Part shown: positions 11,763 through 30,733 of the stretch, one piece after another
How the letters are laid out: each line of letters opens with the position of its first letter
Position numbering within the stretch: the stretch's first letter is position 1
Assembly (NCBI RefSeq): GCF_015097055.1
Contig: NZ_AP023366.1
Coordinates: 3,189,001-3,253,000 of the forward strand
DNA from: Effusibacillus dendaii
GTDB lineage: Bacteria > Bacillota > Bacilli > Tumebacillales > Effusibacillaceae
Length of the DNA: 64,000 bases
Direction of reading: 5' to 3'
Notes under the pieces: model-generated
What the model was told of the DNA's origin: nothing
Database searches by the model: none
What the model saw: the letters and a program-made list of their open reading frames with translations, nothing else
Position numbers and translations under genes: made by a program

Positions 11763-12147
11763 ATGACCATGGTTTCCACTGAAAAGTATCAGGCCTGAAT
11801 TGAGGCATGTAGAGCGTGCCTCACCGAATGTGAAAAATGCGCTACGTCCTGTTGCCGAATGCTTCCCACTTTAGCGCCTGTGTTGAACTCTGCCGGGATT
11901 GCGCTGACATCTGCCAGTTGTCGACCCAGTTCATGTCAAGACACAGTCGCTTTGCGAAACAGGTCTGCCAACTTTGCGCAACCATCTGCGATGCCTATGC
12001 GGTTGAATGTGGCAAACAGACAATTCGACTTGCCAAAGCTGTGCGGAGGCGTGTCGGCGGTGTGCGGAAGAATGCCGTAAAATGGCGTGCCAAAACTGTC
12101 ACCGGTTTGCACGCCATTTTCATTACAATATGTGTATTGAACCCTAA
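11763..12147 (+). pseudogene. Four-helix copper storage protein (Csp/DUF326), broken
   Basis: The remnant is homologous to the intact gene at 21217-21564. The first frame reads EKYQA, TGA (11796-11798), IEACRACLTECEKCATSC. A second frame continues CVELCRDCADICQLSTQFMS to CQLCATICDAYAVEC. A third gives CQSCAEACRRCAEECRKMA. At least two indels plus the TGA, which lies at the first conserved Cys, break the gene; one further core Cys is Tyr. Intact relatives bind many Cu(I) ions through Cys lining a four-helix bundle. Confidence 0.85.
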
Positions 12148-12202
12148 AACGGAACCCCTTAGAAGTTACGCTCTGCCTTATATTTCGCAGTTCGTCGCTC
12201 AC

Positions 12203-13070
12203 TCATTTCACATATTTAACCACTACCATCAGCCCTCCCGGCTCTACATCGGTGTTTGTCGTATGATGGGGTTCGTGGCAGTGGAACACCCACTAGCCTG
12301 GATGTCGGCAATAAAGTCAATATCATAGGTTTCCCCCGGATTCACCGAGCTGTATTTACAATTAGTGGATTTTTCAAAGCATGCCCGTCCTTTGCAATCA
12401 TTCGAAAATCAGGCCTGTGCAGGTGCATAGGATGGATGCCATTACTGATATTGGCCAGACGGATCCGAACCAGTTCCCCTTCTTTCACTTCAAAGGGAGT
12501 CGTATCCGGGAAAGACTTTCCGTTGATGGTCCAATAATTGTAATTCATTCCCGAGATTGAGCTTCCTGCATTTTCACCAGGCTGCTTCGAGGGCATATTC
12601 ATGCCGCCTAACGGAGGTTTCTGGGGATCTTTGTTTTCCATACTGTGTTCGATCATACTGCGAATATCGCCTTTCTTTTTCAGCGGATCGAGTTGTCCCT
12701 TTGACATGCTAGGCATTCGTTCTTGACCTGTTCGTTGTCCAGCGGGCTGGTTTGGAATGTTCCATCCCCCAAATAACATGATATACTCCCGGTCGTGTTT
12801 CAACCGCTGGGTTTCATTTTGCGGATCGATGATCAGAAGGCCCCTATAACTCCTTGTCAATCTGTGGAATACTCCTAAAGTGCGAATGATACATATATGT
12901 CTTAGCAATAAATTTATATGTAAACGTCTCACCGGGTTTGATTGCATTCTGCGTGAAGGAAGGCACACCATCCATCTTGTTCGGAACATGCAAACCGTGC
13001 CAGTGAATTGCAGTCTCTTCCGGTAAACTGTTTTTTAGGATAACTCGTATGATATCTCCTTCGGAACTCC
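12203..13070 (-). pseudogene. Two-domain multicopper oxidase, broken
   Basis: Read on the minus strand in pieces, it shows all four copper motifs of the family: IHWHG, MYHSH, HPMHLH and FHCHEPHH. It resembles the intact oxidase at 21661-22617. The frame changes after the YHSH region (about 12850) and again near 12310, where a TAG also occurs before WVFHCH; the N-terminus is missing. It ends in VVVKYVK at 12203. It is clearly a decayed copper or phenol oxidase gene, lying with the broken copper storage protein gene in one decaying block. Confidence 0.88.
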
Positions 13071-21216: not shown

Positions 21217-21564
21217 TTACGCTGTCATCTTACGACAATTCTCCGCGCACTTACGGCATGCTTCTGCACATTTCTGGCAGTGAGCGTCCTGGAACTTTGC
21301 ACATTCGGTTGCACAAGCGTCACAGATGGTTGCGCAGAGATTGCAGAGTTGATGGGCATACTCGCTGTTGCGGGACATGAACCGAGATGCCATGGAGCAG
21401 ATGTCCGCACAGTCGCGCAAAAGCTGGATGCAACGCGTTCTCGCTTGCATGTCAGCTTCATTGAGACAAGCGGTCAAACATGCTTCACAAGCCTCTACGC
21501 AAGTATTGCAAGTTTCGATACAGGATTGCATGGCCGTCATGTTCATCGTTGTTGCTTCGGGCAT
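21217..21564 (-). CDS. Four-helix bundle copper storage protein (Csp/DUF326)
   Basis: The 115-residue product has about 20 Cys regularly spaced in CxxxC/CxxC patterns: CIETCNTCVEACEACLTAC, CADIC, CNLCATICDACATEC, CQKCAEACRKCAENC. This is the pattern of Csp3-type cytosolic proteins that store many Cu(I) ions inside a four-helix bundle. No signal peptide is present, so it acts in the cytosol. ATG 21564 has the site GAAGGAGGG. It is convergent with the thiol-redox operon and downstream of a multicopper oxidase on the same strand. A broken paralogue lies at 11.8 kb. Confidence 0.92.
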   Translation of the reverse strand: MPEATTMNMTAMQSCIETCNTCVEACEACLTACLNEADMQARTRCIQLLRDCADICSMASRFMSRNSEYAHQLCNLCATICDACATECAKFQDAHCQKCAEACRKCAENCRKMTA

Positions 21565-21660
21565 GAATTTCCCTCCTTCAATGGTAGGTTGTGTTTGAAC
21601 ACGTTTTATGGTTTGCAATTACAGGAGGGCTATTCACCCGTTTAAATCGAAAATAATTCA

Positions 21661-22617
21661 TCACCTGGTGTACCGCACGATGGTAAACATCCCTCCCATG
21701 TCGGATTGATGTTCATTTGTCATATGATGCGGTTTGTGACAGTGAAACGCCCAAGTACCAGGGTTATTGGCCTTAAATTCAATATCGTACGTTTCCCCGG
21801 GAGCTACATTGATCGTGTTTTTGTAGTAGGGGATCGATAGGGGCATACCGTCCGATTCAACGACTTGAAATACGTGCCCATGCAGGTGCATTGGATGGGA
21901 GTCCATACTCAGGTTGGCCAGCCGGATTCGAACCGTTTCCCCGTATTTTACAGGGAGAGGGGCTGTAGCCGGGTATGCTTTGCCGTTCATCGTAAAATAG
22001 TTAAAATCCATGCTGGTCGGGTCAATATCAAAAATACCCGATGCTGGTTCGGAAACAGCGGGCTTCATGTCCATTTGCCTCATTTGCGTATCGCCCATTT
22101 GCATTCCACCCATCTGCATGTCGGCCATTTGTTTTCCCGTTTTTACACTCCATTCCTGCAGCAGGATCAGATACTCGCGATCGGACAGTTTGCGGTTGCG
22201 CGGGAGTGAAACCAGCATGCCCACCAAGCCCATCATCTCCTGCTTGGCGTCGATTGCGTGGGAGTGGTACATGTACGTGCCAGCCTGGTTCACTACAAAA
22301 TCATATACGTACGTTTCACCAGACTTTACAACCGGACCGGCACCAATATCAGGTACGCCATCGACCGATTCAGGAACCACAAGTCCGTGCCAATGGATGG
22401 AGGTTGCTTCTGGCAGGCGATTTTCCAGTGCAATCTGGACGCGGTCCCCTTCGTTGATGAGAATGACCGGACCGGGTGTTGAACCATTATATCCCCAAGC
22501 ACGAATGGTTACCCCCTTTGTCAAGGTTTGGTGAATCTCTTCCGCAATCAGATGAAATCGTTTAATCCCGTAATACGTTTGAAACGGGAGGAAGGATAAA
22601 TTGGGCGCCACAATCAT
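21661..22617 (-). CDS. Two-domain multicopper oxidase
   Basis: At 318 residues it is much shorter than the three-domain oxidase at 14.7 kb. It has copper motifs IHWHG, MYHSH, HPMHLHGHVF and FHCHKPHH, and a short Met-rich insert (MADMQMGGMQMGDTQM). The C-terminal site has HCHKPHH rather than the usual HCHxxxH. No signal peptide is seen, so it may act inside or be exported by another route. The ribosome site AGGAGG is strong. Trimeric small laccases have a similar size; that assembly is inference. Confidence 0.88.
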   Translation of the reverse strand: MIVAPNLSFLPFQTYYGIKRFHLIAEEIHQTLTKGVTIRAWGYNGSTPGPVILINEGDRVQIALENRLPEATSIHWHGLVVPESVDGVPDIGAGPVVKSGETYVYDFVVNQAGTYMYHSHAIDAKQEMMGLVGMLVSLPRNRKLSDREYLILLQEWSVKTGKQMADMQMGGMQMGDTQMRQMDMKPAVSEPASGIFDIDPTSMDFNYFTMNGKAYPATAPLPVKYGETVRIRLANLSMDSHPMHLHGHVFQVVESDGMPLSIPYYKNTINVAPGETYDIEFKANNPGTWAFHCHKPHHMTNEHQSDMGGMFTIVRYTR

Positions 22618-27364: not shown

Positions 27365-27419
27365 TTGACTGATTTGAATTAGTTGAATATAATTTTATAC
27401 ACATACAGGGTATGGGTAT
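27365..27419 (+). promoter_or_regulatory. Strong sigma-A promoter with copper-type operator for copZ
   Basis: TTGACT (27365-27370) and TATAAT (27388-27393) are spaced exactly 17 bp. Ten bases after the -10 box lies ATACAGGGTATGGGTAT (27403-27419), resembling half-sites of CsoR operators, placed to block initiation. Confidence 0.7.
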
Positions 27420-27456
27420 TGTGTGTGAGGAAAAAGATTATGAGGAGGCGATTGGA

Positions 27457-27675
27457 ATGGCAGACGTTGTAACATTGAAGGTAGAGGGCATGACTTGAGG
27501 CCACTGCAAGGCTTCCGTGGAGAAGTCTCTGAATGAATTGAATGGGGTTGCTTCCGTAAACGTCGATCTGGAAAACAAATCGGTTAAAGTGGAATATGAT
27601 GCGTCAAAAGTGAAAGTGGATGCCATGAAAGCAGCGATCGAGGATGCGGGGTACGACGTGGTCGGCAACGTGTAA
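27457..27675 (+). pseudogene. copZ: CopZ copper chaperone with TGA at the first metal-ligand Cys
   Basis: ATG 27457 has a good site (GAGGAGG). The frame reads MADVVTLKVEGMT, TGA (27496-27498), GHCKASVEKSL and on to DAGYDVVGNV, a normal HMA-domain length of about 72 residues. CopZ has GMTCxxC, so the TGA falls exactly on the first Cu(I) ligand; nothing else is damaged, and the promoter, operator and terminator are intact. A hairpin can be drawn around the codon: GACTT (27492-27496) with AAGTC (27523-27527) and CCAC with GTGG. It is either a recent nonsense mutation or a selenocysteine/UGA-decoded chaperone. An intact copZ lies at 30527. Confidence 0.7.
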
Positions 27676-27683
27676 CGTTGGAG

Positions 27684-27707
27684 GCGGCCGCTGGAAGGCC
27701 GCTTTTT
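27684..27707 (+). terminator. Terminator after copZ
   Basis: GCGGCC-GCTGGAA-GGCCGC followed by TTTTTC, 9 bp after the stop codon. Confidence 0.85.
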
Positions 27708-27749
27708 CTATCATAATGCGACAATGAGATATATTTTTTTACGCAATAA

Positions 27750-27765
27750 AACCCTAGGGGGGTAA
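27750..27765 (+). promoter_or_regulatory. CsoR operator upstream of csoR-copA-copZ
   Basis: AACCCTAGGGGGGTAA fits the Bacillales CsoR box (TACCC.A.GGGGTA). It lies 26 bp before the csoR start and implies autoregulation of csoR and copper-induced expression of copA. Confidence 0.65.
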
Positions 27766-27790
27766 GGTAGTCAAAGAGGTGAATCAAGCG

Positions 27791-28069
27791 ATGTACAACT
27801 ATCACAGCGATAAAGATCAATTGCTGCGCAACCTTCGGAAAATCGAAGGGCAGGTTCGAGGCGTGCAGAAGATGATTGAGGAAGACCGCTACTGCGTGGA
27901 CATTTTGACACAGTTGGCGGCAATCAAGGCAGCTACCAACAAAATCGGGCTAACGCTTTTGGAACATCATACGCGGGGCTGCGTAACCAAAGCGATTCAA
28001 AACAACGACGATGGCGGGGAACACCATATTCAGGAATTGATGGATGTAGTCCGGGCTTTTACCAAGTGA
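27791..28069 (+). CDS. csoR: Copper-sensing repressor CsoR
   Basis: From ATG 27791 the product has 92 residues and is all-helical. It carries the Cu(I) ligand set of CsoR: Cys in RYCVDIL, His and Cys in LLEHHTRGCV (pattern C...H...C). RKIEGQVRGVQKMIE is the conserved first helix, and the Tyr and Glu second-shell residues are present. Apo-CsoR represses; Cu(I) releases it. The upstream frame would allow GTG 27779, but ATG fits the family. It lies 27 bp before copA, with an operator in front. Confidence 0.93.
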   Translation: MYNYHSDKDQLLRNLRKIEGQVRGVQKMIEEDRYCVDILTQLAAIKAATNKIGLTLLEHHTRGCVTKAIQNNDDGGEHHIQELMDVVRAFTK

Positions 28070-28096
28070 TATTGCATAAGTGTGGAGGTGATTTTG

Positions 28097-30508
28097 ATGA
28101 GCACTGCAGTTCAAGAGAAAACCGGGTCCACAGCCAGCCTGAAAATTGAAGGGATGACTTGTGCGGCATGCGCCAACCGGATCGAAAAGGGGCTTGCCAA
28201 GCTGGATGGAGTCGAACAGGCAAACGTCAATTTTGCGTTGGAAAAAGCAACTGTAGTATACGATGCAGACAAAATCAATTTGCAGGATTTACAGAAAAAG
28301 GTGGTTGACCTTGGGTACGGCGTATCGATCGACAAGCTGGAGCTTGACATTACGGGGATGACCTGTGCGGCATGCGCCAACCGGATTGAAAAAGGCCTTA
28401 ACAAGCTTCCGGGAGTCACCCAGGCTAACGTCAATTTGGCATTGGAGCGGGCGACTGTTCAGTATAATCCTGGCGAAATCAGTGCAGCCGATATGATCCA
28501 GAAAGTGAAGGATCTTGGATATGGGGCTGCTCTGCACAAAGATGCGGAACAGCAGGAGGACAGCCGGGAAAAGGAAATTCGCCGTCAGAAACTGCGGTTT
28601 ACCGTGTCGGCCATCCTTTCCTTGCCGCTTTTGTATACGATGTTTGCCCATTTTGGCTGGAGCGGTGTGTACATGCCGCATGTTCTGATGAATCCGTGGG
28701 TGCAGTTTGCGCTTGCGACACCGGTACAGTTTGTCATCGGCTGGCCATTTTATCGAGGCGCGTACAAAGCGTTGAAAAACGGCAGCGCCAATATGGATGT
28801 TCTGGTGGCGCTGGGCACGTCGGCCGCTTATTTTTACAGTCTGGCGGCGATTCTTACAGGGAACACGGAAAAACTTTATTTTGAAACAAGTGCGATTCTA
28901 ATTACGCTGATCATTCTCGGCAAACTGTTTGAAGCCGTTGCGAAAGGGCGCACTTCGGAAGCGATCAAAAAACTGATGGGGATGCAGGCGAAAACGGCAC
29001 TCGTAGTGCGGGACGGCAAGGAAACGGTGATTCCAGTAGAAGAAGTGCTGGTCGGCGATACCGTGATCGTCAAACCGGGAGAAAAAATTCCGGTGGACGG
29101 GGTGGTTCTGTCCGGCACATCCGCTGTGGATGAATCGATGTTGACCGGTGAGAGCGTTCCTGTCGATAAAACAACCGGTGGTTCGGTGATTGGTTCGACG
29201 ATCAACAAGAACGGTTCGCTTACATTCAAAGCGACAAAAGTCGGAAAAGATACGGCGTTGGCACAGATTATCCGCGTGGTGGAACAGGCGCAGGGGTCGA
29301 AAGCTCCGATTCAGCGGACAGCGGATGTGATCTCGGGTATCTTCGTGCCGATTGTGGTCGGGATTGCAATTATTGTCTTTTTCATCTGGTATTTGGCCGT
29401 TGATGCAGGCAACTTCACGCATGCGTTGGAAAATGCGATTGCCGTTCTTGTGATCGCCTGCCCTTGCGCGTTAGGGCTGGCCACTCCCACCTCCATTATG
29501 GTGGGAACAGGGAAAGGCGCTGAATTGGGCATTCTGTTTAAAGGCGGCGAGCATCTTGAGGCGGCCCATAAATTGAACACCATTATTCTTGATAAAACAG
29601 GCACCATTACCAAAGGGGAGCCTGCATTGACCGACGTGGTCGTACTTGCGGATATCCCGGCAGACAAGCTGCTCGCGCTTGCCGCCAGCGCCGAAAAAAA
29701 TTCGGAACATCCGCTGGCCCAGGCGATTGTCAATGGAGCAAAAGAGAAAAATCTCGATTTGTCTCAATCCGAACAGTTTGAGGCAATCCCGGGATACGGA
29801 TTGTCTGCAACAGTCTACGGACGGAAGCTCTTCATCGGCACGCGCAAACTGATGGAACGCGAACAGATTAATGCAAGCAACGCGCAAGCCAGCATGGAAC
29901 GGCTGGAAGACGAAGGGAAAACAGCCATGCTGGTGGCTGTTGACGGAAAGCTGGCGGGTATTGTGGCAGTTGCCGATACGGTCAAGGAAAGTTCCAGACA
30001 GGCGATCGCCAAATTGAAAGAGCTGGGTCTGGAAGTGGTTATGATCACAGGAGACAATCGGCGTACCGCTGAAGCGATTGGCAAACAGGTCGGCATTTCG
30101 GAAATCCGGGCGGAAGTTCTGCCGGAAGGCAAGGCAAAGGAAGTGGAATCTTTTAAGGCGCAGGGCAAAAAGGTGGCCATGGTGGGAGACGGTGTAAACG
30201 ATGCGCCCGCTTTGGCAACAGCCGATGTGGGTATGGCGATCGGCACCGGTACCGACGTCGCGATGGAAGCGGCCGATGTCACACTGATGCGGGGAGAACT
30301 GACCAGCATTGCAGACGCGATTTCACTCAGCCATAAGACAATGAACAATATCAAGCAAAATCTGTTCTGGGCACTGTTCTACAATTCGATCGGCATTCCG
30401 GTAGCGGCTGCCGGGTTGTTGGCACCCTGGGTGGCGGGAGCGGCGATGGCGTTCAGCTCCGTGTCGGTTGTATTGAATGCATTGCGATTAAAACGGGTAA
30501 AAATATAA
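28097..30508 (+). CDS. copA: Cu(I)-exporting P1B-type ATPase CopA
   Basis: The product has 803 residues. Two N-terminal HMA domains each contain GMTCAAC (Cys 22/25 and 90/93). Eight membrane helices are predicted, with the ion-path motif CPC (Cys 455/457), the phosphorylation site DKTGT (Asp 499), TGES, the SEHPLA HP motif and [10 protein letters not shown]. These together define a Cu(I) exporter of the P1B-1 class. ATG 28097 follows GGAGGTG. The operon is csoR-copA-copZ, with CopZ delivering Cu(I) to the pump. Confidence 0.97.
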
Positions 30509-30526: not shown

Positions 30527-30733
30527 ATGAGTACTATCACTCTAAACGTTCAAGGTATGTCTTGTAATCATTGTGTCAATTCAGTGGAGGGTGCGCTGGG
30601 AAAATTGGTAGGCGTTAGCTCCGCAAAAGTGGATCTCTCAGCTAACCAAGTGACTGTTTCATTTGATGACACGGTCGTGAGTGTAGATCAATTAAAAGAA
30701 ACAATTGAGGATCAAGGATACGATGTAGTGTAA
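30527..30733 (+). CDS. copZ: Copper chaperone CopZ (intact copy)
   Basis: This is a single HMA domain of 68 residues with the Cu(I) motif GMSCNHC and the C-terminal DQGYDVV typical of CopZ. It carries Cu(I) in the cytosol to CopA and CsoR. The site GGAGGAG precedes ATG, 18 bp after copA. It differs considerably from the TGA-containing copy 3 kb upstream (GVSSAKVDLS against GVASVNVDLE), so the two are not a recent duplication. Confidence 0.95.
   Translation: MSTITLNVQGMSCNHCVNSVEGALGKLVGVSSAKVDLSANQVTVSFDDTVVSVDQLKETIEDQGYDVV

Follow-up and report, generated by a model that had tools for sequence, protein, structure and literature searches.

A copper chaperone gene of Effusibacillus dendaii with UGA at its first copper ligand very probably encodes a selenocysteine form of CopZ

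Is a copper chaperone gene with a stop codon at its metal site a broken gene or a selenoprotein gene? The question is raised by a small reading frame in a 64,000-nucleotide stretch (the window) of the genome of Effusibacillus dendaii, which is a single contig of 3.45 Mb. The frame, at positions 27457 to 27675 on the plus strand, translates as MADVVTLKVEGMT*GHCKASVEKSLNELNGVASVNVDLENKSVKVEYDASKVKVDAMKAAIEDAGYDVVGNV*, and its sole internal stop is the TGA at 27496 to 27498, at the first Cys of a GMTCxHC site (GMT-U-GHC). Translation thus bears out the initial annotation, which placed a TGA precisely on the first of the Cys ligands for Cu(I) in a CopZ protein and offered two readings, a selenoprotein candidate or a fresh nonsense mutation. 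With the TGA, which is kept in 12 other genomes, read as selenocysteine (Sec), the gene, here called copZ(Sec), would encode an HMA copper chaperone of 72 residues and 7.6 kDa, in which residue 14, Sec, is the first Cu(I) ligand of a UxHC motif. The evidence below makes us highly confident that it is a real selenoprotein gene.

When the TGA is read as Cys, the product scores 103.5 bits with the NCBIfam CopZ model NF033795 (cut-off, 91 bits) and 81.9 bits with Pfam HMA, the only domain matched in Pfam, and it matches the solved CopZ structures 6ff2, 1k0v, and 2qif. The AlphaFold2 model (pLDDT, 89.5) has a beta-alpha-beta-beta-alpha-beta order, with residue 14 in the loop before helix 1. The second Cys ligand is retained and the codon of the first is TGA; since the two-Cys GMxCxxC motif of CopZ is therefore incomplete, we class the protein as a Sec variant of CopZ and not as an ordinary CopZ.

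Besides the TGA, there is no further lesion in the gene, and the elements that the initial annotation had described as intact (promoter, ribosome site, frame, and terminator) are all present on the plus strand. A sigma-70-type promoter, TTGACT-N17-TATAAT, lies at 27365 to 27393, with 11 of 12 consensus matches in a scan whose single hit is about the number that chance would give. On its 3' side, GGGTATGGGTAT (27408 to 27419) may contain half sites of a CsoR-type operator, as judged by inspection. The Shine-Dalgarno sequence GAGGAGG is at 27442 to 27448, and at about 27680 to 27711 the frame is followed by an intrinsic-terminator-like hairpin (GCGGCC...GGCCGC; fold, -16.6 kcal/mol; z, -2.25) and a run of five T's; a consensus terminator scan did not flag the hairpin near 27680 to 27707.

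The gene has the linkage to csoR and copA by which a CopZ is recognized, the order on the plus strand being copZ(Sec), csoR, copA, copZ. The csoR-family gene for a copper-sensing repressor (27779 to 28069, start codon uncertain) scores 87.9 bits with NF052430, below the equivalog cut-off of 175, and is preceded by ACCCTAGGGGGGTA at 27751 to 27764, a CsoR-box-like sequence that may act as its operator. It is followed by copA, whose product is a P-type ATPase for copper export with both of its GMTCAAC domains intact (28082 to 30508; TIGR01511, 634 bits), and by the intact copZ that had been reported 3 kb away, found here at 30527 to 30733, with Cys at both ligand positions and 108.4 bits with NF033795. 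Near copZ(Sec), the window also has genes for a Csp1-like protein of copper storage and for a multicopper oxidase. The former is a Cys-rich four-helix protein (21217 to 21618, minus strand) that resembles Csp1, with a TIGR04401 score of 49 bits, below the cut-off; the latter, of CopA/CueO type (21661 to 22617, minus strand), has only 318 residues, compared with 593 and 529 positions in the family models. A second Cys-rich frame, without an NCBIfam match, is found at 11834 to 12325.

As the initial annotation had advised, we looked for selenocysteine genes in the same genome. We found selA (609.9 bits, 2e-183), selB (400.9 bits), selD, and tRNA-Sec (66.4 bits, above the gathering score), so the gene cannot be set aside for want of a decoding apparatus. 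selD adjoins selA at about 1.296 Mb and has its own in-frame TGA (KAG-TGA-GCKIGP); a TGA ahead of GCKIGP in selD is a known selenoprotein arrangement. A thioredoxin reductase gene lies directly 5' of selB in this genome (6968 to 9870 of locus L246), as it does in the clusters of the distant families f77 and f114 described below.

The closest homologues, at 80 named loci, all have Cys at the ligand position, with no case of TGA; the TGA thus aligns with a Cys of the homologues, a comparison that had also been proposed at the outset. Same-genus CopZ proteins likewise have Cys at the first ligand. We ran the pattern GMT-TGA-xxC over the order, class, and phylum, and the stricter GMT-TGA-xHC over the phylum. 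Across the 14 genomes of the order, the pattern matched the window gene, a MerP-like lipoprotein gene, and a P-type ATPase gene present twice. The class scan retrieved a second Sec-type CopZ from a different family (genome G035), MGQITLNVPGMT*GHCKSSVERALNGVNG..., with 61% identity over the aligned part; many other matches in Bacilli were rejected as chance or out-of-frame sites. Among 398 genomes of the phylum, the stricter pattern gave 10 matches, all 10 in HMA genes (the window gene and 9 in families f77, f114, and f129), compared with 1 match for a reversed-pattern control. A protein search of family f77 found the TGA in eight of eight genomes, in the only standalone CopZ of each; most of the other matches were to domains within large proteins, CopA for example.

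Altogether, Sec-type standalone CopZ is present in at least 13 genomes of five families (the window genome and 12 from four other families), a lower bound because the scan covered Bacillota and the GMT form only. All 13 genomes have tRNA-Sec. An arrangement conserved to this extent does not point to a broken gene. In a CopZ protein tree, the distribution of Sec requires three to four changes, the 69 columns being too few to tell one origin from several.

The sequence 3' of the TGA is under purifying selection, with mainly synonymous substitutions. The dN/dS pairs are 0.15/0.56 (G531 versus G584), 0.09/0.62 (G560 versus G678), and 0.21/0.48 (G608 versus G655); between the window gene and that of G035, dN is 0.28 and dS is saturated. 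A dead frame would not show dN below dS. Conservation of the UGA among relatives and coding selection after it are expected of a bacterial selenoprotein, and both are seen here.

The gene neighborhoods of the relatives connect the chaperone to selenium as well as to copper. Both f77 and f114 have the gene order fur, csoR-like, copZ(Sec), trxB, selA, selB, tRNA-Sec (thioredoxin reductase, 381 bits; selA, 575 bits; selB, 388 bits), and in f77 the cluster continues with a LysR-type gene and then a selD with TGA. In f129, copZ(Sec) adjoins CopA. We found no earlier description of a copper chaperone gene linked to selAB and to a gene of csoR type.

Other HMA-type proteins of related genomes have a TGA at the same ligand. 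The MerP-like lipoprotein gene matched in the order (GMT-TGA-ASC; G001:C105:95892-96092, minus strand) belongs to a related species and sits in a copper island syntenic to that of the window, whose other genes encode a multicopper oxidase, CopA/CopZ, and a Csp1-like protein. The two P-type ATPase copies of G006 are identical and ZntA-like (GMT-TGA-AGC), and G035 has a ZntA-like ATPase gene (SGIT-TGA-ADC; L147:2388-4460) beside its Sec-CopZ gene; in both genomes, the N-terminal HMA site has TGA in place of its first Cys, and each gene follows an ArsR-family gene. Outside these proteins, a PCYCGC-motif protein of genome G203 (C24) that matches the known selenoprotein family OS_HP4/PF13798 has GMT-TGA-GIC, and its hairpin loop also reads CGUGA.

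For a bacterial SECIS element, a stem of 4 to 16 bp, a loop of 3 to 9 nt located 16 to 37 nt from the UGA, a G in the first two loop positions, and a minimum free energy of at most -7.5 are expected (PMC13188914). The hairpin drawn in the initial annotation (GACTT with AAGTC and CCAC with GTGG) has the TGA inside its stem and its loop at about +7 to +18, which breaks the 16- to 37-nt spacing rule (PMC13188914), and the folding energy of 27490 to 27535 is ordinary (z, -0.3); that hairpin is probably not the SECIS. The likely element is a neighboring apical hairpin, AGGCTTC-CGTGGA-GAAGTCT, at 27509 to 27528 (plus strand). It has a 7-bp stem and a 6-nt loop spanning +18 to +23, whose second and third positions are G and U, in line with the rules for stem, loop, G, and spacing, and when folded alone it reaches -7.3 kcal/mol, just short of the limit. 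The loop G-U is weak evidence by itself, since these bases belong to a Val codon that is kept for the sake of the protein. A competing fold forms when the UGA-proximal bases are free, and a ribosome on the UGA would be expected to melt it.

In 14 of 15 UGA-type HMA genes, many of which are relatives, a hairpin loop starts at +16 to +20; among 134 Cys sites, the share is 37% (Mann-Whitney, p = 2e-5). No excess was seen at other offsets. When the window gene was recoded synonymously, an equal or better hairpin arose in 0.56% of the sequences with uniform codons and in 0.08% with local codon usage; overall, the synonymous-codon test of the hairpin gives p about 0.001 to 0.006.

Could the gene nonetheless be dead? 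If this were a redundant copZ with a recent nonsense mutation, or with a miscalled base, one base change from TGC or TGT would suffice, and the second copZ would do the work; with that intact Cys gene 3 kb away, loss of Sec-copZ would be tolerated. Because the closest same-genus relatives have Cys, the Sec form in E. dendaii rests on the distant relatives and on the hairpin. Chance mutation does not, however, account for an identical TGA codon in the CopZ of 12 genomes from four other families, all with tRNA-Sec, or for the TGA with which a related genus member encodes this ligand in a different HMA protein; the gene has no second lesion, and its hairpin is improbable under synonymous recoding. 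We consider a dead gene very unlikely, and of the two readings first offered the selenoprotein has strong support, from the Sec machinery and the 12 other tRNA-Sec genomes, and the fresh mutation is rejected. Nor do we give much credence to readthrough by a near-cognate tRNA or to a regulatory stop, in which case the chief product would be a peptide of 13 residues, and the full-length protein would be made in small amounts, with Trp or Cys and no selenium. Sequence alone cannot tell readthrough from Sec insertion, and the base after the UGA is a purine (G); but against this reading, which we regard as very unlikely, the UGA falls precisely on a metal-binding Cys in more than one HMA family, every Sec-type CopZ genome has tRNA-Sec, and readthrough would require neither the selAB linkage nor the positioned hairpin.

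A different doubt accepts the selenoprotein and concerns its metal: it might handle another soft metal (Hg, Ag, or Cd) or serve selenium metabolism instead of copper. The related HMA selenoproteins are MerP-like or ZntA-like, and in two families the gene lies within a sel gene cluster. We nevertheless find this rather unlikely, as the best family match is the copper chaperone CopZ, above the cut-off, and the gene adjoins csoR-copA-copZ in the window, CopA in f129, and a csoR-family gene in f77 and f114.

For the favored Sec form of the copper chaperone, the following course can be proposed. UGA codon 14 would be decoded as selenocysteine by SelB and tRNA-Sec, aided by the hairpin just 3', and the product would fold as a normal HMA domain. 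Cu(I) would be bound through the selenolate of Sec14 and the thiolate of Cys17 and then passed to CopA. Selenocysteine is deprotonated at lower pH than Cys and is a softer donor; the site should therefore hold Cu(I) more firmly and under more acid conditions, that is, be tighter or more acid stable. On oxidation, a Se-S bond may form, which the thioredoxin reductase linked to the gene in relatives could reduce. The Cys copZ that follows copA is probably used under selenium shortage.

HMA-domain selenoproteins have been recognized before. The Bacillus-type CopZ (NF033795; PDB 1k0v/2qif, 6ff2) shares with copZ(Sec) the HMA fold, the length, the GMTxGHC loop, and the csoR/copA neighborhood and differs in the first ligand, Cys instead of Sec (UGA). 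The cation-transporting ATPase E1-E2 selenoprotein (HMA UxxC; ABB15669.1; PMC13188914 Table 1), the type also found in G006 and G035, shows the same Cys-to-Sec exchange at UxxC, but it is a large membrane pump, whereas copZ(Sec) encodes a free chaperone. Two HMA-domain metal-binding selenoproteins are already named by NCBI: the UxxU metal-binding (seleno)protein NF041115, with which copZ(Sec) scores 57.7 bits (cut-off, 95) and from which its UxxC motif sets it apart, and the MerT/CopZ fusion selenoprotein NF045683, for which an NCBIfam model exists and with which the 72-residue protein scores 47 bits (cut-off, 375). A small mercury-binding MerP selenoprotein is reported from the GOS metagenome (PMC2398784); it is probably an HMA relative, but a MerP and not a CopZ, and a Sec MerP-like lipoprotein is encoded in G001 and absent from the window. 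The (2Fe-2S)-binding selenoprotein annotated as "copper chaperone CopZ family" (cd10141; motif GxUC or CU; PMC13188914) shares only the name, having a BFD-like 2Fe-2S domain where copZ(Sec) matches only HMA in Pfam.

Catalogued HMA-type or metal-handling selenoproteins include the UxxC ATPase, the UxxU protein, MerT, and, from marine metagenomes, MerP (PMC13188914, PMC9312934, PMC2398784). Plain CopZ is absent from the 2026 catalogue of 119 selenoprotein families, and no paper on Sec-CopZ was found in the literature. Neither catalogue lists a standalone HMA CopZ with UxHC, and none of the NCBIfam families matched is devoted to it; the chaperone thus adds a new form to a domain in which Sec was already known (ATPase, MerP, UxxU). 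The neighborhoods in f77 and f114 allow a more speculative thought, to which we assign a low probability, that copper and selenium handling are coupled: the csoR-like repressor, Sec-CopZ, trxB, selA, and selB might form one transcription unit through which copper induces Sec synthesis, with Sec-CopZ shielding selenide and selenoproteins from copper or reporting selenium status via copper.

CopZ/Atox1 is the textbook copper chaperone, with a CxxC site that is apparently fixed. A natural Sec-CopZ, in five families and linked to the Sec machinery, would make it possible to test directly what selenium contributes to the binding and transfer of Cu(I), the control being the Cys paralogue of the same genome. 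Some copper chaperone genes at present annotated as truncated or as pseudogenes may likewise be intact and encode selenoproteins.
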